Shown here: piece by piece, positions 1 through 36,723 of the stretch
Layout: each line of letters starts with the position of its first letter
Numbering within the stretch: the stretch's first letter is position 1
DNA from: a virus
Direction: 5' to 3' (one strand)
Virus record (IMG/VR): IMGVR_UViG_3300044675_000556
Span: 1 to 38,903 of that record
DNA length: 38,903 bases
Translations under genes and position numbers: made by a program
The notes under the pieces: model-generated
Told to the model about the DNA's origin: nothing
What the model saw: the letters and a program-made list of their open reading frames with translations, nothing else
Database searches by the model: none

Positions 1-20
1 GAATTGTATGTGACTGCCAT
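1..20 (-). CDS. Start of baseplate/fibre-like protein (partial copy)
   Basis: This is the left-end copy of the first six codons of the gene that is complete at 38349-38705. Its ATG is at 20-18, one base downstream of the TAA at 24-22 that ends the gene at 22-366. The remainder is found only after closing the circle at position 38685. Confidence 0.85.
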
Positions 21-218: not shown

Positions 219-366
219 TGTATGAAGTTCGAAGGCACTTCTGATTTCTGAACTCCCCGTAATACTTTTCCCAGTCCGAGATTCCTTCAATAACTTCTGT
301 TTCATTTCGTCCAGTAATGACTTCAACCACCAGATTATTCTCGTCAAGAAATGCGTAGTGCGCCAT
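22..366 (-). CDS. Small virion-associated protein, paired with glycine-rich adhesin
   Basis: A 114-residue protein of unknown function. It shares its layout with the 81-residue protein at 20180-20425: an N-terminal MAH-(F/Y)-A stretch, a V-EVI segment, then T-SYNG-IR near the middle followed by FA--G--Y. In both places the gene directly follows a glycine-rich adhesin-like gene, so the two are probably paralogues serving the same adhesin type, as fibre chaperone or cap. The C-terminal third is rich in Trp, Pro and Lys and is absent from the shorter paralogue. The start codon overlaps the stop of the gene at 366-1229 (TAATG). Related small proteins are common in environmental tailed phages, but I know of no assigned role. 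Confidence 0.75.
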   Translation of the reverse strand: MAHYAFLDENNLVVEVITGRNETEVIEGISDWEKYYGEFRNQKCLRTSYNGRIRKNFAAVGYYYDEELDAFIAPKPFDSWTLDSKAQWQAPKPYPKDKKIYFWNEENLNWDLAE

Positions 367-1229
367 TAGACAGTCACCAATCCTGTTCCAGCGGTAAATT
401 TATAGTATTTGTATCCGCCTGTTACATACCGAGTATAAGTTAATCCAGCAGCGATTGTTGTGAGATCCGGTTTCGAATCTGCGTAGCGAATAATTACAAT
501 ACCTGAGTTGCCATTGCCTTGACCGCCTCCTCCACCGCCAGTATTAGCTGCGCCGTTTCCATTTCCGGGCATTCCTTGGGTTGAGCCGTTTCCGTCATTG
601 CCTCCGCCGCCTCCAGCAAACCAATAGGTTCCGCTTACATTTTGTCCAGAGCTAGTCGCCAAGCCCCACGCTGAATACGCAGAAGATCCTGCTCCGCCAT
701 TGCCTCCAAGATAGCTCGCTCCGCCTATGGCGTTGGTTCCTACGGCAGTTGCGCCTCCTCCGCCGCCTCCACCCCAAGTAGAAGGGCCGAATCCATTTCC
801 GCCAGCGAAGCCTTGGCCTGCCGTTCCTGCTCCGCCTGTTCCACCGCTAGATCCCGTAGAAGAAGCTCCGCCTCCGCCTCCAGATCCGCCGCTTGAACCA
901 TTCTGCCCAGACTGACCATTGTTACGATAAGAAGCTCCGCCTCCACCGCCTATTGCAGTAGAAGAACTGAAAGCACTGTTTGAACCGTTGCTTCCGTTAG
1001 GGCCATTCTGCGTTGTAAGAGTTGCTCCTCCTGATCCAATGGTGATTGTATAAGTTGGATCAGATAAAGAGAAAGCCGACAATCCAATAAGTCCGCCAGC
1101 TCCACCGCCACCTGCTTGACCGTATTGAGATCCGCCTCCACCACCACCGGCAACAATTAAAACGTCAGCGGAAATTACAGAAGAACCTCCGGCTGGCTGA
1201 GCGACTGCTCCAAAGATAGCGCGACGCAT
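366..1229 (-). CDS. Glycine-rich tail-fibre/adhesin-like protein (copy 1)
   Basis: 287 residues. A short head (about 1-20) is followed by an ADVLIVAGGGGGG segment, then about 200 residues dominated by runs of Gly with Ala, Ser and Asn, and a C-terminal block with GNSGIVIIRY and a Tyr-rich end closing in FTAGTG-V-V. This is the phage glycine-rich adhesin architecture, thought to fold as packed polyglycine helices at fibre tips. Homologous copies lie at 20430-21227 and 36724-37560. The gene sits between terminase and portal rather than in the tail module, so it may decorate the head or neck. The start follows the upstream stop directly (TAAATG). The long antisense proline-rich ORF is a shadow of the Gly codons. 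Confidence 0.75.
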   Translation of the reverse strand: MRRAIFGAVAQPAGGSSVISADVLIVAGGGGGGSQYGQAGGGGAGGLIGLSAFSLSDPTYTITIGSGGATLTTQNGPNGSNGSNSAFSSSTAIGGGGGASYRNNGQSGQNGSSGGSGGGGGASSTGSSGGTGGAGTAGQGFAGGNGFGPSTWGGGGGGGATAVGTNAIGGASYLGGNGGAGSSAYSAWGLATSSGQNVSGTYWFAGGGGGNDGNGSTQGMPGNGNGAANTGGGGGGQGNGNSGIVIIRYADSKPDLTTIAAGLTYTRYVTGGYKYYKFTAGTGLVTV

Positions 1230-1511
1230 TTAGATACCAGAGAAAAGAACTACTACATCTCCTGCTGAAGTTGCGCTACCTGCAATAGCCCAAAGAGCGT
1301 CGTTTGCATTAAGGCAGATTACCAAGCTAGAAGCAGCAGCGATTGTTGCGCCCTTTGTTGCTCCAGAAGTTGCAACGCTAGATCCGCCGACATAAATAGG
1401 CGAAGCAGATCCGTTGTAAATAGTTACCGTTGTGTATTGCACACCATTTGGAAGCTGAAAGAGCTTCGCAGCAGCGGTTGTAACGATTGGATTTTGCTGG
1501 ACAAGTGCCAT
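1230..1511 (-). CDS. Small beta-rich decoration-like protein
   Basis: 93 residues, Ala/Ser/Thr/Val-rich, with no Cys pairs and no membrane segment. The pattern of an I-N turn, -VG-S-V, a G--L step, a D-L(W/Y)-I strand and a closing VV-L-SG is shared with the 100-residue protein at 33610-33912, so the two look like paralogous jelly-roll or Ig-like virion proteins. The start is well supported by AAAGGAG seven bases upstream of the ATG. It lies just downstream of the large terminase (11-base gap). A capsid decoration or head-fibre base role is inferred from size, composition and position. Confidence 0.6.
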   Translation of the reverse strand: MALVQQNPIVTTAAAKLFQLPNGVQYTTVTIYNGSASPIYVGGSSVATSGATKGATIAAASSLVICLNANDALWAIAGSATSAGDVVVLFSGI

Positions 1512-1522
1512 TTTTTTCTCCT

Positions 1523-2890
1523 TTAAGACTCAGACTGAATCATAACAGAACCGCACTTGGAGCAATGGCTTTGGGACTTAGGCATAGGGAGATTACATTT
1601 TGCGCAAAAGTTAGCAATCGCGTTAAAGTAATTGGAAATGTTGGCAGTTCCTAGAAGGTCGCTGAATCCCTGCACCATAGCGTCAAGGCGATCTGGAGAG
1701 TCTGAGCTTTCAGGAGTCCAGAGGGTCATTTGTTCTTCCAGTTTGTCGAAGGCTCCGACGTGCTTGATTCTGCCCTGCTCATACATTGCAGCAACCGGCT
1801 CGGCTCTGAGTTTCTTTCCGACGTGGACTCGCACTTCTCGAATCGGCAAAGTTGCGTCGACTTGGCGCAAGACTGCACTCACCATGTCCCCTCCTTGATT
1901 GACTTCGACCAAGATTGAATCTGCTTTCCATTCCTTGAAGACTTCTACTGCCTTGCGCGCCCAGTCAAGAGGGCTTCCCTTGAAGGAGTAATCTGCCAAG
2001 ACATAGCCGAATCCTCTTGCGTCGGCTCCACAGACAACGATTCCTGTTTCGTCTGAGGCTTGCGTATTGGTTACGGCTGGATCTATGGAAACAGTAATCC
2101 GAGAAAGAGGAGGGATTTCCCCCACGCGATTGCGCTCGATTAGCCCACGAGTCCAGAGCGCTCCTTCGACGTCCTCCAGAATCTCCCCGTATAACTCCTG
2201 CCTTCCAAGGCGAGTGCCGTTGTAGCGCGCTTGTAATTCGATAAGGGCTTGGGGCGCAAGGTTGGCTGCATTGTCAAAAGTTGAGCCTCGCACGACCACG
2301 ACAGAGCCGTCATCTCTGGAGTTGAGCTTGCGGATAAGAGGCACAGGCTTAGGGGTCGTTGTGATCACAGTCCGGGGGTGGTCGCCAAGCCGGAGGCCGA
2401 ACTGGAGCTGGTCGTAGGTATCTTCATAGCGCCAAGCGGCTAGCTCGTCGCACCACGCTCCGTGGTGTTGAGGGCCTCTGAGGCGATCTGGCTCGTCGGC
2501 TGAGAAGAGCTTGATTCTGCTCCCATTGACGAGCTTGATTTCCCCAATAGAGCGGTTGTAATAATCGAGAACGCCATACTGACGAAGAATGGGGAGCAAG
2601 CCTGACTCACCCTCTGCACAAGTATCTCGAACGTCGCCGAAGGTTGGGGCGATAACTGCCCACCTTGTATCTCTTTGCGTGATCGCTTGCCACGCAATCC
2701 ATTCAGCGGCAGTTCTGGTCTTTCCTGCTCCACGCCCGGCGAGATAGAGCCAAGTCGTCCAAGCCTCGTCCTCATTGGGTAACTGTTCCGGCCTCGCCAG
2801 ATCGTTCTCCCAGAGAATCCTCCTGTCCTGCAATCTCTCGTACAGCTTGGACAATTTCGCGTGTTCTCTGTCGTAAAAGGTTTCCGTCAT
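1523..2890 (-). CDS. terL: Terminase large subunit with C-terminal zinc ribbon
   Basis: The 455-residue packaging motor. The N-terminal ATPase shows a Walker A motif GRGAGKTR (52-59) and a Walker B region GAWCDELAAW. The C-terminal RNase H-like nuclease is recognisable by SIDPAVTN, ILVEVNQGGDMV and DRLDAMVQGF, which carry the acidic metal ligands. It drives ATP-dependent DNA translocation through the portal and cuts the concatemer. Oddly, the last 29 residues form a CxxC...CxxC zinc ribbon (C429, C432, C443, C446) that most large terminases lack. The start is fixed by GTGGAGG nine bases upstream, which makes the gene overlap the small terminase frame by 119 bases. Confidence 0.93.
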   Translation of the reverse strand: MTETFYDREHAKLSKLYERLQDRRILWENDLARPEQLPNEDEAWTTWLYLAGRGAGKTRTAAEWIAWQAITQRDTRWAVIAPTFGDVRDTCAEGESGLLPILRQYGVLDYYNRSIGEIKLVNGSRIKLFSADEPDRLRGPQHHGAWCDELAAWRYEDTYDQLQFGLRLGDHPRTVITTTPKPVPLIRKLNSRDDGSVVVVRGSTFDNAANLAPQALIELQARYNGTRLGRQELYGEILEDVEGALWTRGLIERNRVGEIPPLSRITVSIDPAVTNTQASDETGIVVCGADARGFGYVLADYSFKGSPLDWARKAVEVFKEWKADSILVEVNQGGDMVSAVLRQVDATLPIREVRVHVGKKLRAEPVAAMYEQGRIKHVGAFDKLEEQMTLWTPESSDSPDRLDAMVQGFSDLLGTANISNYFNAIANFCAKCNLPMPKSQSHCSKCGSVMIQSES

Positions 2891-3257
2891 AACTAGTTAC
2901 CTCCACTTCAGTTTTTATTGGGGCGTCTATGCCGAACAATTTTGCGTCGCGTTCTAAGATTTTGAGCATTAGCTTAATCGCCTCGAAGTCGCCTTGGAGG
3001 ATTTGGGGCCAGATTGCTTTGAGCGCTATCTCCAGCCTTTGCCTATGAAGCTCGCGCATTTCAGAGTTGATTGCGTCGTCCCTAACGCGCTCCATTGCTC
3101 GGCGAAAGGCAGCTCTGGCTCCAGATTCATTTGAGTATCCGAGCTTCCGCGCTATCTGGTCAAAAGTTGCTCCGCCTTGGCGATAAGCCACAACCTGACG
3201 CTCTTTCTCGAAGAGTTCAGGATCTAGTGAAATTACTTGCGTATCGTTTTCTTGCAT
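2772..3257 (-). CDS. Terminase small subunit-like protein
   Basis: 161 residues. An N-terminal helix-turn-helix (about 20-50, with AYRQGGATFDQIARKLGY) resembles the DNA-binding domains of small terminases and homeodomain-like HTH proteins. It is followed by a long charged helical region (60-115) suited to oligomerisation and a flexible C-terminus. Its place directly upstream of terL supports recognition of the packaging site. The reading frame continues 119 bases into terL, so its C-terminal 39 residues are encoded on the same DNA as the terL N-terminus. The start is eight bases after the stop of the Mom-like gene. Confidence 0.75.
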   Translation of the reverse strand: MQENDTQVISLDPELFEKERQVVAYRQGGATFDQIARKLGYSNESGARAAFRRAMERVRDDAINSEMRELHRQRLEIALKAIWPQILQGDFEAIKLMLKILERDAKLFGIDAPIKTEVEVTSYDGNLLRQRTREIVQAVREIAGQEDSLGERSGEAGTVTQ

Positions 3258-3264
3258 AGTCGCA

Positions 3265-4044
3265 TTACGATTCTTGGGTATGAGGTTGGAGCAGTGGGGT
3301 CAGATTTGCACTGCCCTCTTCTGGCAGGGAGCCAGACGTGTCGCTTTCTACACTTCCACCGCGTGAACCTAGATACATTTTTGCCCCGGCTCTTTCAATC
3401 TCAGAGAAAGGAATCTCTGCGACTGTAAGACGCTTTCTTGCTTCGGGCTTCAGGAAATAAACATACCTCAGTTGAAACCCTTCCGCTTTTTCAGCACCGA
3501 TACTGCTCAGGAACTTGTGGCTTGATTCTGTTCCTGTCTTTCCCCACTTTTTCTGAAGCTCCGAAGATACTCCTGTGGTGAAGTTTATGTCTGCCGCGTA
3601 TTCCCCGTCTGGCAAGCGCCAAATCGTCTTGTTGCGGTTGATCTGAGTAAGCACAAAGCCAGAAGCGCGGTAGATAGTTCCGTCGCCACATTGAGTCCCG
3701 TCTGCGAATGAGATTACCCACTCCAAGTGAGGAGCGTGCTTTTTGAGCATTTTAAGAGCAACTCCTATTGCGCGAGATTCAGAGTTGCGAGGCAGAGCGT
3801 CGCTGAATGCCATTCGATTAAGTTCGACAAAGCCATTCCAAGGAGTTCCAGCGACTAGACCCTGAGTCTTGCGCTTATCCATAGAAGGGCCGAACTGGAG
3901 CGCTCCCTCTAGCTTGCCGTTATAGAAAACGCCTATGTGGATCTGTGAGTTAGGAGCAACTTTCTTACTGTAATGAATCTTGCGCACAAGAGCGTTCGCC
4001 TCGGCTGAGGTAATTGGTTTTAAGACTATGTCTTTGGCGCTCAT
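3265..4044 (-). CDS. Mom-like DNA-modification protein (GNAT-type fold)
   Basis: 259 residues. The core (about 25-135) carries HYSKK (24-28), GVFYNGKLEGALQFG (38-52), ELNRMAFSDALPRNSESRAIG (74-94) and SFADGTQCGDGTIYRASGF (112-130). I recognise this as the phage Mom-like family, related to GNAT acyltransferases. In phage Mu, Mom converts adenine to a carbamoylmethyl-modified base that blocks many restriction enzymes. Substrate and product here cannot be read from sequence. The C-terminal 80 residues are less conserved and end in a Ser/Gly/Pro-rich tail. The start overlaps the stop of the ParB-domain gene (ATGA), so translation is coupled, and the small terminase gene follows after seven bases. 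Modification just before packaging would fit this position. Confidence 0.65.
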   Translation of the reverse strand: MSAKDIVLKPITSAEANALVRKIHYSKKVAPNSQIHIGVFYNGKLEGALQFGPSMDKRKTQGLVAGTPWNGFVELNRMAFSDALPRNSESRAIGVALKMLKKHAPHLEWVISFADGTQCGDGTIYRASGFVLTQINRNKTIWRLPDGEYAADINFTTGVSSELQKKWGKTGTESSHKFLSSIGAEKAEGFQLRYVYFLKPEARKRLTVAEIPFSEIERAGAKMYLGSRGGSVESDTSGSLPEEGSANLTPLLQPHTQES

Positions 4045-4640
4045 ACCTGAGTTCCCAAAAAGATTTCAGCCATTCTTGTAAGGGCATTCCCATTACGGTT
4101 TGTGTTATCCGATTCCGGGAACTCTCCAAGGGCAACTGAAGCGCTAATCGCTTCGTTCACTGTTTGGACTTGCTCGTGGCTAAGAGTAAAAGTTACTTGC
4201 TGGAATTGGGATTGTTCCTTTGCGGTCTTATCGAATGCGTCTGCCCAATCGTCAGCGCTTGCTTGAAGAATCTTCTCAAAGCCAAGCTCTTTAATGTCCC
4301 ACGCCATTTCTTCAAGATCTACAAGTTGCGTTGCGAGGATTGCTTCGTCCCACTCCGCTAATTCTGCCGAGCGATTATCTGCGAGCGCGAAAGCCTTTGC
4401 CTTGTCGGTATCCCAATCTTCAGGAACTTCAACCACTGCAATCTCTTTCCACTTTAAGCCTTTGGCTGCTTCATAAGTTCCGTTACCTGCAATGATTACG
4501 CCGTTATGAATAACAATCGGCTTTCTTTGTCCGAATGCGTCAAGGCTGGCAGAAATAGCTGCAAGGTTTTTCTCCGAATGTTTGCGAGCATTGTTCGGAT
4601 CTGGCTTAATTTCTTCAAGCTTTACAGTTTTAATTTCCAC
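4041..4640 (-). CDS. ParB/Srx-like N-terminal domain protein
   Basis: 199 residues starting at GTG, with a strong AAGGAGG five bases upstream. Residues 1-90 form a ParB-like domain: VKLEEIKPDPNNARKH, then SLDAFGQRKPIVI and AGNGTYEAAK, the last matching the conserved nucleotide/DNA-binding box of the family, followed by ALADNRSAELAEWDE. The C-terminal half is helical and unassigned. No ParA lies nearby, so partitioning is unlikely. In phages such domains often accompany DNA-modification enzymes, and here the gene is coupled by a 4-base overlap to the Mom-like gene. It could guide that enzyme, act as a nuclease, or bind DNA for packaging; the first is my preferred inference. Confidence 0.75.
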   Translation of the reverse strand: MEIKTVKLEEIKPDPNNARKHSEKNLAAISASLDAFGQRKPIVIHNGVIIAGNGTYEAAKGLKWKEIAVVEVPEDWDTDKAKAFALADNRSAELAEWDEAILATQLVDLEEMAWDIKELGFEKILQASADDWADAFDKTAKEQSQFQQVTFTLSHEQVQTVNEAISASVALGEFPESDNTNRNGNALTRMAEIFLGTQV

Positions 4641-4663
4641 GTTTGCCTCCTTGCATTACTTTA

Positions 4664-4840
4664 TCACTGGGGTTTTATGTCCGCCAGTTTCAAACGCTCA
4701 TCTAATAAGTCGTCAAGAGTTTCCAGTAAAAGATTTCTGCGTTGCGGTTTCAAGCGGTCGTCAGCCAGAAGCGTCTGTATGTGCTTCATAGCCTCGTCGA
4801 GATCTTCGACTGTTACCTCTTCAGTTATTACAACGGTCAT
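4664..4840 (-). CDS. Small acidic hypothetical protein (58 aa)
   Basis: A 58-residue ORF from ATG at 4840 to TGA at 4664, filling the space between the HTH protein and the ParB-domain gene. It begins MTVVITEEVTVEDLDEA and is predicted to be helical, with LLLETLDDLLDERLKL near the end. The start is nine bases after the upstream stop, with no clear ribosome-binding site. No family is recognised. Support comes from operon packing and from the absence of any competing frame. Confidence 0.55.
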   Translation of the reverse strand: MTVVITEEVTVEDLDEAMKHIQTLLADDRLKPQRRNLLLETLDDLLDERLKLADIKPQ

Positions 4841-4849
4841 GCACGAAGA

Positions 4850-5035
4850 CTAGCGGTGCTTACGTGCCTCTCGCTTGGCAGCATAAGCGGTTACCTCTTC
4901 GGTAGAATAGAAAACATTTCGCCATTCCCGGCGCTTCCACTTCAAGGTTCCTCTGTGCTGAATCTGTCGAAGGTTGTTGATAGTAATTCCAAGGTAGTCC
5001 GCGACCTCTTGGGAGGACATTTCATTCTCTACCAC
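4850..5035 (-). CDS. Small MerR/excisionase-type HTH protein
   Basis: A 61-residue DNA-binding protein. MSSQEVADYLGITINNLRQIQHRGTL is a typical helix-turn-helix followed by the W-KR wing of the HTH_17/excisionase class. This fold is used by phage excisionases and by small transcriptional regulators. No integrase is encoded in the window, so a regulator role in the switch to late genes is more likely than excision. Its start overlaps the end of the SSB gene by seven bases. Confidence 0.75.
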   Translation of the reverse strand: MVENEMSSQEVADYLGITINNLRQIQHRGTLKWKRREWRNVFYSTEEVTAYAAKREARKHR

Positions 5036-5397
5036 GGCGCAACCTCTTCTTTTGGCGCTGGCTTGCTCTTTCCTGAGCGAGCTACCTTGGCAATAGATTC
5101 TGCGTTGATTTCAAGCGAGGTTTTCTCTTCGCCGTTCTTATCTTTGTAATTTGACTGGCGGAACTTGCCAATTATGAGAACCGTATCGCCCTTTGCGTAG
5201 TTATCTACAACAGTTTCCGCTTGTGATCCGAAGACCACAACATTGAACCAAATTGTTTCGCCGTCTTCCCATTGCCCCGTAACTTTATTCTTTGTGCGCG
5301 GAGTTTCTGCAACTGAAAACTTTGTAATTCCAAGATCGCCGGAGAACTTAATCTCTGGGTCTTTGCCAATGTTGCCCTGAACCGTAATTTGTGCCAT
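5029..5397 (-). CDS. ssb: Single-stranded DNA-binding protein
   Basis: 122 residues with the SSB OB-fold: MAQITVQGNIGKDPEIKF at the start, GITKFSVAETPR, an IWFNVVVFGSQAETV segment and GDTVLIIGKFRQSNYKDKNG. The C-terminus is Lys/Pro-rich and ends EEVAPW, a shortened relative of the acidic tip through which SSB contacts partners. It would coat ssDNA during phage replication and recombination. It is packed directly after the HNH gene (its ATG follows the HNH stop) and before the HTH gene. Confidence 0.92.
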   Translation of the reverse strand: MAQITVQGNIGKDPEIKFSGDLGITKFSVAETPRTKNKVTGQWEDGETIWFNVVVFGSQAETVVDNYAKGDTVLIIGKFRQSNYKDKNGEEKTSLEINAESIAKVARSGKSKPAPKEEVAPW

Positions 5398-5730
5398 TTA
5401 CTTCGCCTTCTCTAGTAATTTGTAGCTTCCGTCGTCTAATAGTAATACGATAGAGCCGTCTGGTCTAATCAGAGGGTGCTCGTCGGGCCTGGCCCAAGAC
5501 GGAACCATAAATCCCATACGCTCAGATTCTTCAGGATTGTCGTGGATTGAATCCTTTTGCTGAATGTGGCAAGAATTGTGGACGGCAATTAAGTTCGAAA
5601 CCTGATCCTTGCCGCCCCTAGATTTGAGCTTTCGGTGGTGGAGATTGTAAGCGTCAGAGAGAACGCCTCCGCATTTCTCGCAATAGCCCCCAGCGCGCTC
5701 AATGACTTTCTGAGCAATCTTTTTGTCCAT
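5398..5730 (-). CDS. HNH endonuclease
   Basis: 110 residues. The HNH core is clear: YCEKCGG (C17, C20), NLHHRKLKSRGG (H31, H32), VSNLIAVHNSCH (N46, H51, C54), making a zinc-stabilised beta-beta-alpha metal nuclease that nicks or cuts DNA. The C-terminal half (WARPDEHPLIRPDGSIVLLLDDGSY) resembles the tail of free-standing phage HNH proteins. HNH enzymes in terminase operons assist genome packaging in several phages. Here three phage genes and a small ORF separate it from terS/terL on the same unit, so either a packaging role or a homing role is possible. Confidence 0.88.
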   Translation of the reverse strand: MDKKIAQKVIERAGGYCEKCGGVLSDAYNLHHRKLKSRGGKDQVSNLIAVHNSCHIQQKDSIHDNPEESERMGFMVPSWARPDEHPLIRPDGSIVLLLDDGSYKLLEKAK

Positions 5731-5739
5731 AAGTGAATC

Positions 5740-6222
5740 CTAGTACCAAGGGTTTCCCTTTTGGGCTTGGCGTTGCCAAAACGCCCAAGCATTACAAGGC
5801 GTGTCGTAGCGCTTGTAAATGTATCTCAGCCCTGCCTTAATCTGGATTTTTGGATCTTTCGGCTTGTAAGGGTATTTGTAATTGCCCCAAGTCGAAGGCA
5901 AGAACTGAAAAAGCCCAAAAGCCCCGGAGGATTTGTTGTGCGCCAGAGGATTCCAGCGACTTTCGTGGTGAATGAGCTGGTCAAGGCAAGCGAACTCCTT
6001 CTTGCTTCCCCATTGCGCCATTACGCTTTGGTGAGCAATCTCTTTTGGAGTCATTTTCATAGCTTTTGTTGCGAGAGGCGCTTGGGCCTGCGCGCAACTT
6101 ATAGATAAGCCGAGTCCTACCGCTATGGCAATTACAAGGACTCTAGCTCTGAGCCGTATCGGATCAGCCCTTCTTTCCGCCACAATAGGCGCAGATAGTA
6201 ATTCCGTAAATCTGAGCGCCAC
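5740..6222 (-). CDS. Exported lysozyme-like transglycosylase
   Basis: 160 residues from a GTG start; a later GTG at 6183 in the same frame is an alternative. A basic segment RLRAR precedes a hydrophobic stretch (29-42) and an AQA-type signal-peptidase site near 46-48, so the enzyme should be secreted. The catalytic domain follows, with the Glu in CLDQLIHHESRWNPLAHN (E87), then SSGAFGLFQFLPSTWG, an AGLRYIYKRY segment and a C-terminal CNAWAFW...WY closing block, as in actinobacterial Rpf/SLT-like transglycosylases. It cleaves peptidoglycan glycan strands. It is about 12 kb from the lysis cassette and sits in the SSB/terminase unit, so it may serve the virion or superinfection rather than release. 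Confidence 0.8.
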   Translation of the reverse strand: MALRFTELLSAPIVAERRADPIRLRARVLVIAIAVGLGLSISCAQAQAPLATKAMKMTPKEIAHQSVMAQWGSKKEFACLDQLIHHESRWNPLAHNKSSGAFGLFQFLPSTWGNYKYPYKPKDPKIQIKAGLRYIYKRYDTPCNAWAFWQRQAQKGNPWY

Positions 6223-6262
6223 AACCGGTGCAGCGTTGAATCATTTTGTCGTTGCTTTCCAT
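6164..6262 (-). CDS. 32-residue zinc-ribbon peptide
   Basis: A short ORF from ATG at 6262 to TGA at 6164. GAAAGGGGAAC just upstream gives a good ribosome-binding site. The peptide carries RCTGCG and CAYCGG, two CxxC knuckles ten residues apart, ending GKKG: a minimal rubredoxin-like zinc ribbon. An internal ATG at 6244 is a second possible start. It is the first gene after the TATAAT box at 6299-6304, and its 3' 59 bases overlap the predicted start of the transglycosylase in another frame. The function is unknown. Confidence 0.65.
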   Translation of the reverse strand: MESNDKMIQRCTGCGAQIYGITICAYCGGKKG

Positions 6263-6298
6263 TCTTGTTCCCCTTTCAGAGAAGAGTTTGGTCTGAGA

Positions 6299-6304
6299 AT
6301 TATA
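6299..6304 (-). promoter_or_regulatory. Promoter -10 box (TATAAT) for the SSB/terminase unit
   Basis: Read on the minus strand, 6304-6299 is a perfect TATAAT preceded by ACGGG. It lies 36 bases upstream of the zinc-ribbon peptide start and just after a large hairpin. No good TTGACA match is present 16-18 bases upstream, so it may need an activator; the phage WhiB protein is a possible one. Confidence 0.5.
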
Positions 6305-6313
6305 CCCGTAATG

Positions 6314-6358
6314 CCGAATCTGGCTCCCAACTAGAACGGTAGTCGGGAGCCGATTCGG
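6314..6358 (-). terminator. Long inverted repeat ending the early operon
   Basis: CCGAATC-t-GGCTCCC (6314-6328) pairs with GGGAGCCGATTCGG (6345-6358): 14 base pairs with one bulged base around a 16-base loop. It lies in the 180-base gap between the 37-residue gene (6443-6556) and the zinc-ribbon gene. A T-run is lacking, so termination may be weak or factor-dependent. It is immediately followed by a TATAAT box, so it separates two transcription units. No tRNA cloverleaf fits here. The rest of the gap (6359-6442) shows nothing I recognise. Confidence 0.55.
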
Positions 6359-6442
6359 TGGCGCAGATCTGGCTCGGCTAGGGAGCGTCTTGACCAGTCT
6401 TGGCAGGAAATGAATAAACCCGCTTTGACGCCTCTTCAGTAA

Positions 6443-6556
6443 TTATTCAGTTGGTTCTTCTGATAGCCCTAGGGCTTTGAACAGAAGGTTATTTGAGTGC
6501 TCAATAGCTTTGACGATTTCTTCTCGCTCGGCTTGGATTGCTTCTCGAATGCTCAC
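6443..6556 (-). CDS. 37-residue coupled hypothetical protein
   Basis: A short ORF starting at GTG (6556) and ending at TAA (6443). AAAAAAGGAGA lies seven bases upstream, and the start overlaps the stop of the preceding gene as GTGA, so translation is coupled. The peptide is a single predicted amphipathic helix (IREAIQAEREEIVKAIEH) ending in an acidic tail. No family is recognised. It is the last gene before the hairpin at 6314-6358. Confidence 0.65.
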   Translation of the reverse strand: MSIREAIQAEREEIVKAIEHSNNLLFKALGLSEEPTE

Positions 6557-6780
6557 GCGAATCTCCTTTTTTGGTTATAGGCTGAAACTGCCAAGGATTG
6601 CGCTGCCTTGCATTCTGCGCAGGTTGGCTCTCCTTGCTTCAGGTGTCGGGCGTATCCTGCTCTGGTTCCGCATTGAGCCACTTTTCTGTTGGGCTGAGTT
6701 CTAGGCGTTGGCTGAGCCTTGCCTTCGTTGCGCTCGCAAGCGAGGCACTGATACTTTCTGAAGCAGAAGCAGTCGCTCAT
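6553..6780 (-). CDS. Cys-rich zinc-binding protein (actinophage type)
   Basis: 75 residues. The N-terminus has C4, C6, C12 and C15; the central and C-terminal part reads CGTRAGYARHLKQGEPTCAEC followed by a basic helix with KAAQ. The CGT-AGY-RH--GE--C-EC pattern recurs in small actinobacterial and actinophage proteins and suggests a zinc-stabilised DNA-binding domain. The start overlaps the upstream stop (TAATG) and the stop overlaps the next start (GTGA). The specific role is unknown. Confidence 0.7.
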   Translation of the reverse strand: MSDCFCFRKYQCLACERNEGKAQPTPRTQPNRKVAQCGTRAGYARHLKQGEPTCAECKAAQSLAVSAYNQKRRFA

Positions 6781-7121
6781 TACATTTCACCTGCACAAGT
6801 TTCGCAAAGTTGCCAGTCGCCGTAAGAAGTCAATTCCTCAGATTTTTCTTTTCTTTCACACCTTGTGCAAGGAGAAAGATCTTCGACCAACTCGTTCATC
6901 ATCTCGTCCAACGCTTCGTAATCAAGCTCTCCGCTGATCCACTTAATGTTGTCGGGCGTTCTTTGCGTGTCCAGCCCGGAATCTGTGCAAAAATCTATGT
7001 AAGGGCGCTTGCCTTTGTAATCCTTCATAAAGGCAACGGCTTCTGTATAGATTGAATACTCGTTGTTAAGCCAAAGGCTCACATTCCAAGTCGAGCGATT
7101 TTTCCAGCCTTCGTAACTCAT
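6780..7121 (-). CDS. NRSTWNV-family protein with zinc-ribbon tail
   Basis: 113 residues with the start placed at ATG 7121, which overlaps the upstream stop (ATGA) and begins MSYEGWKNRSTWNVSLWLNN. That opening is a hallmark of a small phage protein family of unknown function found in many tailed phages. The middle is predicted helical and acidic (DEMMNELVEDLSP), and the C-terminus adds CTRC...CETC, a zinc ribbon not usual in the family. An upstream in-frame start at 7163 would overlap the preceding gene by 46 bases and is less likely. Confidence 0.75.
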   Translation of the reverse strand: MSYEGWKNRSTWNVSLWLNNEYSIYTEAVAFMKDYKGKRPYIDFCTDSGLDTQRTPDNIKWISGELDYEALDEMMNELVEDLSPCTRCERKEKSEELTSYGDWQLCETCAGEM

Positions 7122-7291
7122 AGCTCTACCTCCTGAGAGTTCTCGTATCCGCATTTTTCGCACTTCCAGTCAATGTCGGCAGAAGGGCCTTCAGCGTCAA
7201 ACTCTGCAAGGTAATCTCCTGAGCATTGCCAGCAAACCAAGTTCATACTGTAAAACTGGGAATCCACTCCAGATCCGCGCCAGTAACTCAT
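7118..7291 (-). CDS. 57-residue zinc-ribbon protein
   Basis: The start is placed at ATG 7291, overlapping the upstream stop by four bases. The peptide contains CWQC (about residue 20) and CEKCGY (about 43-48) with an acidic segment between, a complete four-Cys zinc ribbon. It ends in a short acidic tail. It lies in a run of six coupled small genes downstream of the compact methyltransferase. Possible roles are DNA or RNA binding or modulation of host proteins; none can be chosen from sequence. Confidence 0.65.
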   Translation of the reverse strand: MSYWRGSGVDSQFYSMNLVCWQCSGDYLAEFDAEGPSADIDWKCEKCGYENSQEVEL

Positions 7292-7482
7292 TTTGCACCT
7301 CCGCAAAGGGAGCAAGGGCAAGCAGGGTTGTGCCAAATCTTTTCCCTAATCACTCCAACGGCTCGCATAAAGCCCCAGTAAGCGTCTTCTGTCAGGCTTT
7401 GGCTCTCTGCAAAAGCAGTAACTTCCGCAGCAATCTTTTCCCGAAAGTCAATCTCGGCTCCAGTTATTGAATTACTTGCCAT
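7288..7482 (-). CDS. 64-residue helical hypothetical protein
   Basis: Begins MASNSITGAEIDFREK and is predicted helical over residues 9-50. It ends HNPACPCSLCGGAK, a Cys cluster that could bind metal with only three cysteines. GAGG lies nine bases upstream of the ATG. The coding region overlaps both neighbours by a few bases. A similar pattern of a helical domain with a short C-terminal Cys cluster occurs in other actinophage early genes. The function is unknown. Confidence 0.6.
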   Translation of the reverse strand: MASNSITGAEIDFREKIAAEVTAFAESQSLTEDAYWGFMRAVGVIREKIWHNPACPCSLCGGAK

Positions 7483-7654
7483 AGCCAGTTACCTCGTCAA
7501 TCATTTTGAGGCAAGAGCCGTAGCCCAGCGCGTTTCCGCCTTCTCCGACATAGCAAACGTCGCGAGTTGCATAGGTAAAGAGGCTCAAAATCAAAGCCCC
7601 CACAATGATCACTACTGCCCTGCGCCTAACTATGTATTTCCGTTCCATTCTCAT
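7472..7654 (-). CDS. Small membrane protein
   Basis: 60 residues with a basic N-terminus (RKYIVRRR), one hydrophobic segment (about 13-27, VVIIVGALILSLFTYA) and an extracytoplasmic part with two Cys. The topology is either a single-pass inner-membrane protein or an uncleaved signal anchor. AAGGAGG lies seven bases before the ATG, which overlaps the methyltransferase stop as ATGA. No family is recognised. Placement in the early block suggests interaction with the host envelope rather than lysis. Confidence 0.6.
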   Translation of the reverse strand: MRMERKYIVRRRAVVIIVGALILSLFTYATRDVCYVGEGGNALGYGSCLKMIDEVTGYGK

Positions 7655-8298
7655 TTATTGCCCTCCTTGTTTGATTTGATTGCTTGCAAAATGTCTTGGC
7701 TCAAAGCCAAAGGGATTCGAGAGCGCTCTTTGGCTCCACTTAATCCTTGAGTGCCAGTTTTTGAACCTCTTGGAGCTGCGTCGTGGCAAGGCATTCCATT
7801 TTTACAGGCTGGGCGCGGAGTCCAGCCTTTTACGCCTCCCCAAAGGTCAGTCGGCTTCATTCGAGAGTCCCCGTATTGGCAGTATGTAATTGTTGTTCGA
7901 GGGAATCCCTTCACAACTGGCAGTTTGCGAAGCATTCCGCGCGGATTTTCCATAAGCCAGCCCTCGCTGGGATTCAATTCCTGAAGCAATTTCAGCGTGT
8001 GAGCCACTAACTCTTGGCTTGCTTTCGCAGCCTCAGTCTTAGGAACTGGATTTTCTCCGCCGTTGGCCCAATGGTGCCAAATACTCGCTACGCTGAATGA
8101 AGTGCAAGGAGGAGAAGCCCAAACAAAGTCAGGTTGCCCGTATTTTGCAATCAAATCCTGAGCGTTAAGGCTTAAAACATCAACATTTTCTGTCGCCTCA
8201 AAAAAGGAATCCAACTCAAAAGTGATCACTGTATGCCCTGCGTCCTTGAAGGCTTGCGTGGAACTTCCCGTTCCGGAAAAGAAATCGTAAACAATCAT
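7651..8298 (-). CDS. Compact C5 cytosine DNA methyltransferase-like protein
   Basis: 215 residues. The SAM-binding motif is DFFSGTGSSTQAF (5-17). The catalytic Pro-Cys motif is in ASPPCTSFS (C65), the ENP motif is in WLMENPRGMLRK (117-119), and CQYGDSRMKPTDLWGG closes the core. These are C5 methyltransferase motifs I, IV and VI. The large target-recognition domain and the usual motif IX/X end are missing or much shortened, so it may be a minimal enzyme with broad specificity. It is coupled at both ends (ATGA). It probably protects phage DNA from restriction, adding to the larger split enzyme at 12513-13887. Confidence 0.8.
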   Translation of the reverse strand: MIVYDFFSGTGSSTQAFKDAGHTVITFELDSFFEATENVDVLSLNAQDLIAKYGQPDFVWASPPCTSFSVASIWHHWANGGENPVPKTEAAKASQELVAHTLKLLQELNPSEGWLMENPRGMLRKLPVVKGFPRTTITYCQYGDSRMKPTDLWGGVKGWTPRPACKNGMPCHDAAPRGSKTGTQGLSGAKERSRIPLALSQDILQAIKSNKEGNK

Positions 8299-8426
8299 TT
8301 GTTGCCCTCTTCTGTTAGGTGGCTGGGCTTGATTGCCCTCGCCATTTTTCCAGCTATTGCCTCAGCCATTTCTTCGGAGTATCCGCTTTCAATGAGGCTC
8401 TGTTTAAACTCTTCAAACTCGCTCAT
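8295..8426 (-). CDS. 43-residue helical hypothetical protein
   Basis: A short ORF from ATG 8426 to TGA 8295. The stop overlaps the start of the methyltransferase (ATGA). The peptide begins MSEFEEFKQSLIESGYSEEMAEAIAGKMARAI, predicted to form two helices of an acidic, UBA-like appearance. Its start overlaps the end of the upstream zinc-finger gene by 14 bases. It could be a small partner of the methyltransferase, but that is only suggested by coupling. Confidence 0.6.
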   Translation of the reverse strand: MSEFEEFKQSLIESGYSEEMAEAIAGKMARAIKPSHLTEEGNK

Positions 8427-8643
8427 TTATGACCGCCTCCCCGTTGATTACTCTCCAGCCTGTCGAATGAATGTAACCGCAATGGTGGCAAGAGCCTCGG
8501 CGAACGTCATAAAGATTTCCGCAAACGCAGCCAAGATCTCGAACTACTGGCTCTCCTGAATGGAAATCGTAATGAAGCATTAAGAGATACCTCTGCTCAA
8601 AGGCTTTTCCGCAATTCTCGCAAGCGTAGGTTTTCTTAGCCAT
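8413..8643 (-). CDS. C2H2 finger plus zinc-ribbon protein
   Basis: 76 residues with the start at ATG 8643, one base overlapping the upstream stop (TAATG). Residues 5-30 resemble a C2H2 finger (YACENCGKAFEQRYLLMLHYDFH). A second metal site follows, with CVCG and CHHCGY. C2H2 fingers are uncommon in bacteria but recurrent in actinophage early regions. A DNA-binding regulator is the simplest reading. Confidence 0.7.
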   Translation of the reverse strand: MAKKTYACENCGKAFEQRYLLMLHYDFHSGEPVVRDLGCVCGNLYDVRRGSCHHCGYIHSTGWRVINGEAVINERV

Positions 8644-8969
8644 TACGCGCCAACCTTTGCAAGTTCCTTTGCTTGGTGCATTTCGATAAGCCACTCAACC
8701 TGCAATTCAAGGGAGTCTGCGTAATCTGCTCCGACGTGCTCCTGTGTCCAATGGTCTTTGGGAGCGTGAGCCGAATAAAAATCTGCAATGTGCTTTGATT
8801 CTTCAGGATTGCTCCAAACGTGTCCTTCAGCCCAGCGAACCGCTAGTCCGCCTCCGTCGCCTTGGTCTTCAAGGAATGCAATCAGTTTTCCGTCGCGGTA
8901 TAAATCCGCAGTGAGAGCAACGCCGTTGCGCATTTCCATTTGTTTCATTTTCTTGATCTGATACTTCAT
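8643..8969 (-). CDS. Hypothetical early protein (108 aa)
   Basis: 108 residues with a mixed alpha/beta pattern: an N-terminal KMEMRNGVALTADLYRDGK strand pair, a GDGGGLAVRW segment, then helices rich in His and Glu (HIADFYSAHAPKDHW). It is the first gene after the repeated regulatory element at 9005-9035, so it probably heads an operon running to 6443. AAGGGAAAC precedes the ATG. Small proteins of this pattern occur in many actinophages, but no function is known to me. Confidence 0.65.
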   Translation of the reverse strand: MKYQIKKMKQMEMRNGVALTADLYRDGKLIAFLEDQGDGGGLAVRWAEGHVWSNPEESKHIADFYSAHAPKDHWTQEHVGADYADSLELQVEWLIEMHQAKELAKVGA

Positions 8970-8987
8970 TTTGTTTCCCTTGTTTGG

Positions 8988-9005
8988 GAGAGCCTCTTGG
9001 CTCTC
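8988..9005 (-). promoter_or_regulatory. Small hairpin in the leader of the 8643-8969 gene
   Basis: GAGAGCC-tctt-GGCTCTC is a perfect 7-bp stem with a 4-base loop, placed between the repeated element and the ribosome-binding site. It could stabilise the leader or modulate translation. There is no adjacent T-run, so it is not an obvious terminator. Confidence 0.4.
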
Positions 9006-9035
9006 TGTTAGGGATAACAGTAGCCCTCAGATTAT
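9005..9035 (-). promoter_or_regulatory. Early regulatory element, copy A
   Basis: 31 bases matching 14951-14981 at 28 positions. On the minus strand the shared core reads ATAATCTGAGGGCTA and then TGTT, with ATAAT suited to a -10 box and GAGGGCTA to the start region. It lies 36 bases upstream of the first gene of a minus-strand operon. It is either a promoter with a conserved initial transcript or an operator bound by a phage regulator. Confidence 0.6.
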
Positions 9036-9064
9036 GGTTTTCCAACTATTACAGAAAGATTTTT

Positions 9065-9090
9065 GAGCCTATTTTGAGCCTGTTCAGCCT
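9065..9090 (-). promoter_or_regulatory. Three phased AGCCT repeats
   Basis: AGCCT occurs at 9066, 9077 and 9086 in the 129-base gap after the RusA gene, spaced about one helical turn apart, with flanking T-tracts and an inverted GGCTC at 9096-9100. Phased short repeats just upstream of a -10-like box look like a binding array for an activator or repressor. Confidence 0.4.
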
Positions 9091-9098
9091 GTTTTGGC

Positions 9099-9476
9099 TC
9101 AGATTTCAAGCGTTTCGAGCCTAATCTCAGCCCCAACAGAAGCCCCGTAGAGCTTCTGAGCCTCAATCTGCACAACCTGCCCGTCGTCCTCATAGGCAAC
9201 CCCTGTAAGCCCGTCAAGGACGGCTCGAATGAGCTTGTCCAGATCTGGAGCCACAGAGGGCCAGGCCCTTTTGACGGTTTTTGGGCGCGGCATAAAAAAG
9301 GTAATGGTGATTTTAGTGGGCAATGAATGAGGAGTTGCCCCGGCGAGCCGAGCTTCCCAGCCGATAAGCGAACGCCAGCCAGCGAGCGCTGATCCCTGAG
9401 AATGCAGGACGCGCCCGTTAATCACTTTCATACTGCCTTGTGGAATAGGGATTCCATTAACGCGGAAAGTAATCAC
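9099..9476 (-). CDS. rusA: RusA-type Holliday junction resolvase
   Basis: 125 residues. The N-terminal FRVNGIPIPQGSMK and the signature PDLDKLIRAVLDGLTGVAYEDDGQVVQIEAQK (78-108) are diagnostic for RusA. D78, D80, D88, D97/D98 and K108 provide the metal-binding acidic cluster. The dimeric enzyme cuts four-way junctions and would debranch recombination and replication intermediates before packaging. It is coupled by a 4-base overlap (ATGA) to the upstream small gene. The length is typical. Confidence 0.92.
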   Translation of the reverse strand: MITFRVNGIPIPQGSMKVINGRVLHSQGSALAGWRSLIGWEARLAGATPHSLPTKITITFFMPRPKTVKRAWPSVAPDLDKLIRAVLDGLTGVAYEDDGQVVQIEAQKLYGASVGAEIRLETLEI

Positions 9477-9661
9477 CGAACCATAGTAACAAAGCCGTTA
9501 GCGACGGCGAACTTTGGCGCTCCGTGATCGTCTTGAAGAAATAAGTCGTAAGTGCCAATACGGTCTGGCCCTTCTAGACATTTAACTGTCCAGACTTTAG
9601 ATTCCACGACGATTTGGTCGCCAGCTTGAATTGCGGTTACATCTGTTGGAACGAGAGTCAT
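9473..9661 (-). CDS. Small beta-rich hypothetical protein (62 aa)
   Basis: The start is placed at ATG 9661, with GGGAGAGG just upstream; a TTG at 9676 is less likely. The peptide begins MTLVPTDVTAIQAGDQIVV and is predicted all-beta, like an SH3 or small OB barrel (GDQIVVESKVWTVK, then FVTMVR at the end). It is coupled to rusA by an ATGA overlap. The function is unknown; a nucleic-acid-binding barrel is possible. The 71-base gap upstream holds only a 6-bp inverted repeat, GTAATC/GATTAC. Confidence 0.6.
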   Translation of the reverse strand: MTLVPTDVTAIQAGDQIVVESKVWTVKCLEGPDRIGTYDLFLQDDHGAPKFAVANGFVTMVR

Positions 9662-9732
9662 CACCTCTCCCTTCAATCGAGTAACAAAAGCGTAAGGCTT
9701 ATGGGTAATCCCAGCAAGTCAAGTTGAGATTA

Positions 9733-10524
9733 CTAGACACGCCGTAGAAGATCCTTCAAGTAATCTGGCATAGGCACCGCCTGTTCCTGCGCTCTTCGAT
9801 TTTCCTCGTCGATTTTTTGCGCTCGCAATCTTTCGGCTTCAGCCTTGGCTCTCGACTCTAGTAGCTCCCTCGCTTTGATTTCCTCCTGCGTAAATTTCCT
9901 TGGAGGCAGAGGCTCGTCAAGCCAGCGTTCGGCATTGAGCCAAGTCGCAGGATAAGCAGTGAAGGACTCGTCCCTGTTGGGGTCGTTTGCATAGCGCAGC
10001 GCGCCCTCTACCGCCTTTTGGCGATCCTCTTGGGGTAATTTATCCCAAGCCTTTTTCGCGGCTCCCTTGGCGGTTTTACGAGGATAGGCTTTGTAGAAAT
10101 CTTCAAACGAAGGCGAATCAGTGGGTGGTTCCAAGGGTGTTTCTTTAGGGTGGTTCATAGGGCGCGAAAGTCGCCCCGTTGCTGGAGCCAAAGTCGCCTC
10201 GTTATCTCCTTCAATGTCGCCCCGACCTTTGCGCTGCGACATAGTGTCGCCCCGAAGCTTGCCAAGGTGGATTGTGTATTTGTTCGGACGGCGATCATCT
10301 CTGCAATTTAAGGAACCCCCGGCTCGCTTCTCCAAATGAAGCCAGCCCTCTTTCTGAAGATTATTCACGCAACGCTGGACAGTACGAATTGTAAGGCTTG
10401 CTTTCTCTGCGATAAGCCTTTGAGAAGGCCAAGCCTCGGTGCCGTCGTCGCTGGCGTGATCAGCAATTACAAGCAGAACCATTTTCTCGCTTGTTGGTAG
10501 CTTCGTTTTCCAGATTTCAGACAT
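9733..10524 (-). CDS. HTH replication-initiator-like protein
   Basis: 263 residues from ATG 10524. Residues 1-90 form a winged helix: KTKLPTSEKMVLLVIADHASDDGTEAWPSQRLIAEKASLTIRTVQRCVNNLQKEGWL. A low-complexity linker follows, then a C-terminal module with FEDFYKAYPRKTAKGAAKKAWDKL and YPATWLNAERW, as in phage replisome organisers and helicase-loader proteins. It ends in a charged coiled-coil region. It most likely binds the phage origin and recruits the host helicase, which fits the absence of phage helicase and polymerase genes. The start overlaps the WhiB stop by eight bases. An upstream in-frame start at 10584 would extend deeper into whiB and is less likely. Confidence 0.78.
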   Translation of the reverse strand: MSEIWKTKLPTSEKMVLLVIADHASDDGTEAWPSQRLIAEKASLTIRTVQRCVNNLQKEGWLHLEKRAGGSLNCRDDRRPNKYTIHLGKLRGDTMSQRKGRGDIEGDNEATLAPATGRLSRPMNHPKETPLEPPTDSPSFEDFYKAYPRKTAKGAAKKAWDKLPQEDRQKAVEGALRYANDPNRDESFTAYPATWLNAERWLDEPLPPRKFTQEEIKARELLESRAKAEAERLRAQKIDEENRRAQEQAVPMPDYLKDLLRRV

Positions 10525-10861
10525 TAGTTTGATACTCAACGACTGCCTCCTTAATGTCGGTAATCGAGATACCATACTCGGCAAGCTCTGAGATTATCTC
10601 TTTCGAGCGAATGTAAGGCGCGCGCCCATTGAAAGCGTTTCTCTCATTGCTCGTCATTCCTCCCCAGACTCCGTAAGTTTCGTGCTCCAGAGCATAGGCA
10701 AGGCACTGCTTATAGATAGGGCAACCCCCACAGATTGTGCGCAGAATCCCCACGTCAATCCAATCACTGTGCCTTCGATTTTCTTCGACCAAATAGAAGA
10801 GGTTAGTAGGAGCGCCCTTGCAGTTTGCTTTGTCCCAATTTACTTCGCTGTACCTTGGCAA
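10517..10861 (-). CDS. whiB: WhiB-like iron-sulfur transcription factor
   Basis: 114 residues. The four conserved cysteines are C14, C44, C47 and C53, spaced C-x29-C-x2-C-x5-C, followed by the GVWGGM turn (64-69) and a basic C-terminal region. These are the hallmarks of the Wbl family, whose [4Fe-4S] proteins bind the primary sigma factor of Actinobacteria and alter promoter choice. Phage members can repress host genes or block superinfection. The C-terminal 40 residues after the turn are longer than the usual AT-hook-like end. It overlaps the nuclease gene upstream by 22 bases. It is the strongest host indicator in the window. Confidence 0.93.
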   Translation of the reverse strand: MPRYSEVNWDKANCKGAPTNLFYLVEENRRHSDWIDVGILRTICGGCPIYKQCLAYALEHETYGVWGGMTSNERNAFNGRAPYIRSKEIISELAEYGISITDIKEAVVEYQTNV

Positions 10862-11508
10862 CCCACTTCTCCTGTTCCGTCATAAAACTTGCAATAGCTG
10901 GAGCAGAATCCCGCCCACTTTTCCGGCGCTGGAGGAGTTTTGCTTGCAGCGAGCGCCTTAACCTCGTCAAGCCAAGCAATCGCCTCCAAAGCAATAGCCT
11001 CGTCATAGGTTTCGACGTGAACTCTGATCTCAGCCATTTCACCGTCGCGAGGAATTGCTACAAGAGCTACCTGCTTGACTTCGTGTCCATTCTGAGAAAG
11101 GAGCCAGCCGTAGGTTTGGACTTGCCACCTTTGTTGCTGGCTTGGGAAATAGCGCAAAGATTTCTTTTTGGTCGTTTTCCAATCTACAACCATTCCTGAG
11201 TCTTTGATAAAAAGATCCACGTGCCCTTTAAGCCCTCCGTGGGCGACCTGCTCTTCGATTATGAAGTTGTCGCCAAAAGGATCTTCGCGAACAATGGCTT
11301 CAGAGATTCCCGAGTGAATGAATGTGCCGAGAATGGCTGCAAGAGATTCCGTTTCTGGATTTGTAACTGGCTGGGCTATGAGGTTGTAATAAACCTGTCG
11401 GCGACAACCTCCGAGGCTAGACGGGCCGATTTCGACTTGCTTGGATCTGTCCCTGTTGGCGTCAAACGCCGTGAGAGATTTGGTCAGAAGGCTATTCAGG
11501 TCGGTCAT
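10840..11508 (-). CDS. Cas4/RecB-like exonuclease
   Basis: 222 residues of the PD-(D/E)XK superfamily. H65 in GTFIHSGI, D98 in GHVDLF, D109 and K111 in VVDWKTT, and QVQTYGWLL form the nuclease core. C35 near the N-terminus and C202, C206 and C217 near the C-terminus match the split four-Cys iron-sulfur cluster of Cas4 and AddB-type nucleases. It is likely a ssDNA exonuclease producing ends for annealing by the protein at 14342-14914. No CRISPR array is present, so it is a recombination enzyme. Confidence 0.85.
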   Translation of the reverse strand: MTDLNSLLTKSLTAFDANRDRSKQVEIGPSSLGGCRRQVYYNLIAQPVTNPETESLAAILGTFIHSGISEAIVREDPFGDNFIIEEQVAHGGLKGHVDLFIKDSGMVVDWKTTKKKSLRYFPSQQQRWQVQTYGWLLSQNGHEVKQVALVAIPRDGEMAEIRVHVETYDEAIALEAIAWLDEVKALAASKTPPAPEKWAGFCSSYCKFYDGTGEVGCQGTAK

Positions 11509-11746
11509 TTATGCTCCAAATACAAAGTAGGATTTTTCTCTTGAATGGATCTGGCAGTTTCAAGCTCTCTTCGTGCTCAATCGCTGGCAGATTTTTTTGA
11601 ACTTCTTGTGCAATTATGGCTCTCCAGTAGCCTTCAAACTCGCTTGCGAGAATCTCAAAAGAGATCCTTCCGTCCACAATTGTTGTGAAAGAATCGCTCT
11701 TTATGTATTGCAAAGTTTGATCGTGAAAGGCAACTGGGTTCGTCAT
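11492..11746 (-). CDS. Hypothetical early protein (84 aa)
   Basis: 84 residues, predicted mainly helical, with an acidic middle (ASEFEGYWRAIIAQEVQKNL) and a short C-terminal strand (ILLCIWSIN). No motif is recognised. It is coupled to its neighbours: the ATG overlaps the stop of the 46-residue gene, and its end overlaps the nuclease start by 17 bases. Between a recombination nuclease and small helical genes it may be an accessory factor, but that is only context. Confidence 0.6.
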   Translation of the reverse strand: MTNPVAFHDQTLQYIKSDSFTTIVDGRISFEILASEFEGYWRAIIAQEVQKNLPAIEHEESLKLPDPFKRKILLCIWSINDRPE

Positions 11747-36659: not shown

Positions 36660-36723
36660 GTGAATCTCCCTAGTTTGCCCTTATGTTTCGGCTTGCGTAA
36701 TAGTAACAGAAACGCTTCAGCTA

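Follow-up and report, generated by a model that had tools for sequence, protein, structure and literature searches.

A predicted exported transglycosylase of a phage and its probable non-AUG start, set between a mini-ORF stop and a covarying hairpin

The wall enzyme and its genomic setting

We analysed a 38,903-base IMG/VR virus record (referred to here as the window); all relatives counted below are likewise IMG/VR contigs and may be fragments. The open frame annotated at 5740–6222 on the minus strand (GTG start at 6222) matched Pfam SLT (2.2e-11, 43.8 bits against a cut-off of 21.3) and NCBIfam AggPromo_Cterm (5.2e-22, 79.6 bits against a cut-off of 40), which bears out the claim of a sequence-only reading that an SLT-like second muralytic enzyme lies here. 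The relevant genes and parts of genes were as follows.

5740–6159, minus strand: lytic transglycosylase ORF of the exported type, 139 aa plus stop (domain profiles, inferred start)
6079–6159, minus strand: predicted signal peptide, residues 1–27, with AxA-type cleavage after CAQAQA (rule-based scoring)
5767–5997, minus strand: SLT/aggregation-promoting-factor C-terminal-type domain (NCBIfam match, alignment)
5964–5962, minus strand: catalytic Glu codon (alignment of relatives)
5988–5986 and 5796–5794, minus strand: invariant Cys codons (alignment of relatives)
5398–5730, minus strand: HNH endonuclease, directly downstream of the transglycosylase (profile match; neighbour kept in most relatives)
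5029–5397, minus strand: SSB, downstream of HNH (profile match; conserved neighbour)
17677–18150, minus strand: CHAP endolysin, the main lysin (Pfam CHAP 1.3e-5, PHROG endolysin 1.4e-54)

AggPromo_Cterm was matched by all 53 members of the transglycosylase family at E ≤ 0.001, and the catalytic Glu within an E-S motif (E40-S41), together with two cysteines, was invariant among the 53 aligned relatives. An AlphaFold2 model of the mature enzyme, built from 53 sequences, reached a pLDDT of 90.3 and superseded an earlier prediction from nine sequences (pLDDT 65). In a PDB structural search with this model, MltE, phiKZ gp144 and MltF came out on top with probabilities near 1, at a best E of 4.8e-3 (none reaching 0.001) and an rmsd of ~5 Å for the first ones, while phage SLT proteins were best in a viral structure library (E 8.4e-10). 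By sequence and model, the product of 5740–6159 is assigned to the lytic transglycosylases of the SLT/LT_GEWL fold, with predicted peptidoglycan-cutting activity. The enzyme itself is of a kind already known, and only adds a new member.

An Rpf-like identity, which had also been proposed, was ruled out, as the Rpf-type profiles scored below cut-off (Pfam PF06737, 16.7 against 27 bits; NCBIfam RpfC, E 0.14); the PDB search placed the model and the Rpf crystal structures in the same general lysozyme fold. One scan of genome contigs for a host-gene source turned up no closely related cellular gene; among full-length relatives the nearest, L241 from an Actinobacteria MAG, has a GTG start with a Shine-Dalgarno (SD) sequence and gave no match to the hairpin model described below. 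Matches of the transglycosylase suggest an actinobacterial host for the phage; those of the terminase were mixed.

Counted with the inferred start codon as residue 1, the n-region had a net charge of at least 1 in 100 of 102 distinct proteins. A hydrophobic core was present in all 102 and an AxA site in 95, and the predicted cut fell at residue 27 in 79. These features, scored by a simple rule rather than by SignalP, agree with the signal peptide claimed previously and predict that the enzyme can be exported via Sec. In the 19 of 20 long related records that have an SLT place, the transglycosylase stood free of any tail or tape measure protein, and the window's own tape measure protein (23125–25803, minus strand) had no SLT domain by Pfam. 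A virion role is not favoured, because the signal peptide looks cleavable and the tape measure fusion is missing.

The transglycosylase gene lies ~12 kb from the CHAP endolysin gene. The order mini-ORF, transglycosylase, HNH, SSB, small HTH gene and terminase was repeated in most relatives, so that the placement noted before, far from the lysis cassette and within an SSB/HNH/terminase unit, is a recurrent one; in loci whose transglycosylase starts with ATT, no HNH turned up. Exactly one SLT place, a free-standing ORF of 133–169 aa, was present in 19 of the 20 long related virus records, and the Pfam SLT search of the twentieth gave no match. The PHROG of the window's endolysin was also found in 18 of these 20. 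The lysis cassette proposed at 17416–18431 was recovered in part: the endolysin at 17677–18150 stood, with a Pfam CHAP score exactly at the model cut-off, and the holin was weakly supported, as the profile search gave no holin match for 17416–17676 and a below-cut-off one for 18147–18521 (Phage_holin_3_6, E 0.014). Megablast of window positions 1–20000 found no close named phage.

Several other genes of the window were recorded in passing. The frame at 3265–4044 (minus strand) strongly matched the Mom DNA-modification family (Pfam PF25680, 1.4e-57) and adjoins a weak ParB_N match at 4041–4640; relative L092 has both, at 84% and 72% identity. Two genes resemble C-5 cytosine methylases (7651–8298 and 12513–13178, minus strand), the former having a counterpart in L073 at a different place, downstream of SSB, with 71% identity. 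In the terminase large subunit (1523–2890, minus strand), the C-terminal residues 425–450 gave weak zinc-ribbon matches (E ~0.02–0.03).

The start codon of the transglycosylase gene

The start region, on which the sequence-only reading was silent, is the most unusual feature of the locus. Its elements are listed below.

6157–6159, minus strand: inferred start codon ATA (aligned column of 102 distinct proteins)
6169–6174, minus strand: transglycosylase SD, AGAAGG (sequence)
6164–6262, minus strand: upstream mini-ORF, 32 aa, CxxC...CxxC zinc-ribbon-like, with a TGA stop ending 4 nt before the ATA (sequence)
6276–6270, minus strand: the mini-ORF's own SD, AAAGGGG (sequence)
6299–6304, minus strand: −10-like hexamer TATAAT, 42 nt upstream of the mini-ORF ATG (sequence)
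6109–6146, minus strand: conserved RNA hairpin, at +14 from the start codon (alignment, covariation)
6143–6137 with 6118–6112, minus strand: hairpin core in the window (alignment)
6129–6127 with 6121–6119, minus strand: inner helix of the hairpin in the window (alignment)

We gathered 238 viral loci by protein patterns that exclude the start codon and collapsed identical proteins, which gave a set of 121: 102 non-AUG proteins, the window's included, and 19 in a separate clade. Of the loci, 225 are represented by a protein of this set, and the other 13 were accounted for singly, nine being near-copies of the ATT group, two near-copies of the ATA group, one cut off (L210) and one a distant relative with ATG (L024). 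When the 102 proteins were aligned on the hydrophobic core, the start column read ATA in 63, CTG in 20, GTT in 15 and ATT in four; these counts come from related sequences and do not represent a probability. ATG, GTG or TTG stood there in 0 of 102, leaving no counter-example in the coupled group. GUU, one of the four codons, initiates translation very poorly in model systems, a point against the non-AUG reading.

In 79 of the 102, the stretch from the in-frame stop upstream to the start column held no canonical codon; in the other 23, either a canonical in-frame codon lay upstream or the frame was not closed there. In L005–L010 a stop codon opens the enzyme frame and no ATG, GTG or TTG precedes the hydrophobic core, and in L156 and L187 a stop codon stands immediately before the ATA. 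A TTG two to three codons after the start column offers a usable alternative start in five of the 102.

Inside the same ORFs, ATA makes up 26% of Ile codons, CTG 10% of Leu codons and GTT 28% of Val codons, and across these sequences the restriction at the start column is not explained by ordinary codon usage. In 56 of the 102, the start ATA overlaps the mini-ORF stop as ATAA or ATAG. Part of the ATA restriction can stem from this overlap; the ATAC, ATT, GTT and CTG cases lack it. On the protein tree the codon label switches several times (12 over all states, including one artefact of a misplaced row), with no switch to ATG, GTG or TTG inside the non-AUG group. The sister clade of 19 proteins (L014–L018, L020–L023, L144, L146, L148–L153, L155 and L157; tree support 99) has ordinary ATG starts with an SD (MLNIRIN...), a longer N-terminus and different neighbours. 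Decoding of AUA as Met was considered and rejected: among 53 residues aligned to internal ATA codons, ~2% were Met and most were I, V or L. Since ATA inside genes aligns with Ile, Val or Leu rather than Met, the genetic code is therefore normal.

The window frame offers two upstream in-frame candidates, GTG 6222 and GTG 6183, both without an SD. GTG 6222 lies inside the overlapping 32-codon ORF (6262–6164), where it arises incidentally from a Cys-Gly codon pair (TGT GGC). The frame is open from this position in relatives L002 and L026 as well, and most relatives have no counterpart of the GTG. The strand and the ORF given earlier for 5740–6222 were correct, and the annotated start at GTG 6222 is very probably wrong; judged from the aligned relatives, the transglycosylase most likely starts at ATA 6159–6157, giving a protein of about 139 aa. 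A stop-to-stop comparison of other genes in the window flagged 84 of 135 ORFs as lacking a canonical start, a noisy result made up mainly of shadow frames; one flagged case, at 36680 on the minus strand, proved on inspection of its sequence to have an ordinary GTG with an SD.

The mini-ORF stop and the hairpin

The mini-ORF stop lay within −4 to +4 nt of the inferred start in all 102 loci (offset −4 in four, −3 in 36, −2 in one, −1 in one, +1 in 15 and +4 in 45), and the same detector placed at nine shifted positions fired in 0–20 of 98–102. A core SD tetramer was found 4–12 nt before the start in 83 of the 102, against 0–17 at shifted positions, leaving 19 loci without one. The stop thus sits where that of a translationally coupled pair is expected, and the two frames are probably coupled. 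Upstream of the mini-ORF ATG, TANAAT occurred at 30–60 nt in 77 of 101 relatives compared with 2.3% of random windows; a generic sigma-70 two-hexamer scan found no promoter at the start region of the window's transglycosylase.

Mini-ORFs are typically ~20–40 codons long. Relative to the enzyme, 36 are in frame, with a single stop codon between the two, 61 end at −2, +1 or +4, and five at −4 or −1. Their peptides carry a zinc-ribbon-like CxxC pair in 47 loci, a single CxxC in 38 and no CxxC in 17, and the window's peptide gave only a weak, below-cut-off Pfam match (zf-ChsH2, E 0.012). In L127–L142 the mini-ORF encodes an unrelated, Cys-free peptide of ~21 codons, and its stop is still at the start codon. 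Because the CxxC content varies so widely, translation of the mini-ORF looks more conserved than its peptide, as if the peptide were replaceable.

Downstream of the start, 87 distinct sequences aligned from the start codon onward and folded without constraint gave a consensus hairpin with an outer helix of nine pairs and an inner helix of three. Its cells were paired in 92.8%, against 77.8% after shuffling and 29.9–48.9% when slid; the covariation score was 0.437 (0.187 shuffled, at most 0.162 slid), and cells changed on both sides numbered 183, against 75.9 shuffled. Compensatory changes occurred in nine of the 12 pairs, and 20 sequences thinned to below 70% identity still had 90.8% of cells paired. 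A synonymous Gly codon tracks its hairpin partner (71 T-GGA, 10 C-GGG, six T-GGG and no C-GGA), so that the pair is Watson-Crick in 81 of 87 and wobble in the other six. The distance from the start column to the hairpin was 13 nt, without a gap, in 87 of 87.

Rfam gave no matches at E ≤ 1 across window positions 5600–6700. A covariance model of the hairpin recovered the start region of the window and of all four other non-AUG loci searched, the model having been built from sequences that include or are close to these. It matched neither the starts of the ATG-clade loci in that search nor any part of L241 or of the Streptomyces phages L320 and L321. A weak second match was seen away from the enzyme gene (G007:C1:30060–30118, minus strand; E 0.001, 21 bits).

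In the window itself the hairpin has a seven-pair core, and the pairs of columns 14–54 and 16–52 fail. Folded alone, a window slice favoured an SD-blocking structure (hairpin probability 0.06), and a longer slice formed the core hairpin. The idea of the 5′ arm as a general SD-blocking switch was discarded, as blocking exceeded a probability of 0.3 in only three of 87 sequences, the window among them; the mean was 0.05 where an SD was found.

A weak start for a wall enzyme, and systems compared

We consider it likely, from these patterns, that an exported wall-cutting transglycosylase is kept at low, coupled translation by a weak non-AUG start. The phage would make a small Sec-exported lytic transglycosylase that cuts the glycan strands of the host wall, apart from its CHAP endolysin. 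Ribosomes would translate the upstream ORF of ~20–40 codons, terminate a few nt from the enzyme start, and be left beside the SD, where they could re-initiate at the non-AUG codon (AUA 6159–6157 in the window), assisted at this weak codon by the SD and by the hairpin 13 nt downstream. The role of the hairpin may be positioning, not repression. The leading edge of an initiating ribosome (the toeprint position) lies approximately where the hairpin begins, and the hairpin may therefore hold the ribosome at the weak codon. The low dose of enzyme, reaching the wall once made, could prepare or assist lysis or trim the wall without early killing. Such a throttle would make sense because overproduction of a transglycosylase that is exported can be toxic: Kayvirus tgl resisted cloning behind a constitutive promoter, and it lysed E. 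coli (PMC7150955). Re-initiation near a stop codon in E. coli is SD-helped and IF3-sensitive (PMC2268962), and natural AUA/AUU starts in S. aureus give about 10% of AUG output (PMC13009471). More tentatively, the start region may represent a phage RNA element not described before, one that causes bacterial ribosomes to initiate at AUA, AUU, CUG or GUU. In this view the mini-ORF delivers the ribosome, and the hairpin, at its constant distance of 13 nt downstream, would keep the ribosome on the weak codon by acting at its mRNA entry, as a bacterial counterpart of Kozak's hairpin.

The same elements could be read in other ways. A hairpin a few nt past a stop codon is a typical stimulator of recoding, and with the 36 in-frame mini-ORFs one stop away from the enzyme, stimulated frameshifting or readthrough of that stop could produce a membrane-anchored zinc-ribbon/transmembrane/transglycosylase fusion. 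We regard such programmed recoding as decidedly improbable: the mini-ORFs meet the enzyme in each of the three frame relations, more than one recoding event could serve, and the hairpin spacing is constant relative to the start codon (87 of 87) but not relative to the stop. Some clades also replace the mini-ORF with unrelated Cys-free peptides, and the geometry of the signal peptide fits the odd codon as residue 1. Alternatively, a phage or host protein bound to the hairpin might shut the enzyme off until late infection, in which case the non-AUG codon would only lower the ceiling. A covarying hairpin just inside an ORF does resemble translational operators, that of the MS2 replicase among them. 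Repression at an operator nevertheless seems unlikely to us: the ribosome explains the fixed 13-nt spacing more naturally, no candidate binding protein emerged, and the zinc-ribbon peptide, with its CxxC pair present, halved or absent, is too variable for a universal ligand.

It would be very surprising if the gene were an ordinary secreted second endolysin, read from the canonical GTG 6222 or 6183, with the start-region alignments coincidental. The frame is indeed open from 6222 in the window, L002 and L026, and secreted phage transglycosylases exist (PMC7150955). However, an upstream canonical start is absent in the 79 relatives counted above, both GTGs overlap the mini-ORF and lack an SD, and initiation there would lengthen the N-terminus by a charged segment ahead of the signal peptide.

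If the enzyme is translated from a weak, coupled start, the locus points to a way in which phages limit the dose of a wall-cutting enzyme exported during its synthesis. Starts at ATA, GTT and CTG lie outside what gene finders normally consider, and the whole family is therefore likely to be mis-started or missed. Some hundred natural variants, with four non-AUG codons and a covarying hairpin, provide a test of how weak starts are selected after termination.

Among known enzymes, the secreted Tgl of staphylococcal Kayvirus phages, proposed as an additional endolysin, is similar in being a phage lytic transglycosylase whose signal peptide is cleavable and of the AxA type, made besides a CHAP-containing main endolysin and from an early-type promoter (PMC7150955). 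With its own AxA signal peptide and separate CHAP endolysin, the window enzyme is predicted to be Tgl-like in function. The two differ in position, tgl being three genes from lysK and the window gene ~12 kb from the endolysin in an HNH/SSB/terminase unit, and the available text describes no non-AUG start for Tgl, the term 'start codon' being absent from it (PMC7150955). The 'transglycosylase/endolysin' genes of Streptomyces phages, such as Jay2Jay gp42 and Joe gp55, encode the same domain with ~34–50% identity; Jay2Jay gp42 adjoins an HNH gene, like the window transglycosylase, and these two genes have canonical start candidates, unlike the window family. In many Gordonia and Corynebacterium phages the same domain, also with ~34–50% identity, is built into the tape measure protein as a virion fusion.

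The M13 gV-gVII and MS2 coat-lysis pairs restart at canonical codons. They are similar to the phage family in that an upstream stop lies at the next gene's start and an SD is helpful, and the termination-reinitiation model, in the part of the source available, does not include a downstream hairpin (PMC2268962). Likewise, infC, ccpN and cvfC1 have a conserved AUA/AUU start with a strong SD and about 10% of AUG output, but they are cellular housekeeping or regulatory genes, whereas the window case is a phage wall enzyme (PMC13009471). The phage family differs further in using four non-AUG codons, in having a mini-ORF stop placed at the start codon and in its conserved hairpin downstream. A literature search that mostly excluded subscription journals found neither a phage non-AUG start of such a kind nor a bacterial or phage downstream hairpin serving a non-AUG start, and the start element, combining a mini-ORF stop, a non-AUG codon and a hairpin, appears to be new, even though the kind of enzyme is already known. 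The nearest likeness for the hairpin is eukaryotic: Kozak reportedly placed a hairpin 14 nt downstream of weak start codons. That is nearly the same distance after a weak start as in the phage family, but Kozak's hairpin acts on scanning 40S subunits.
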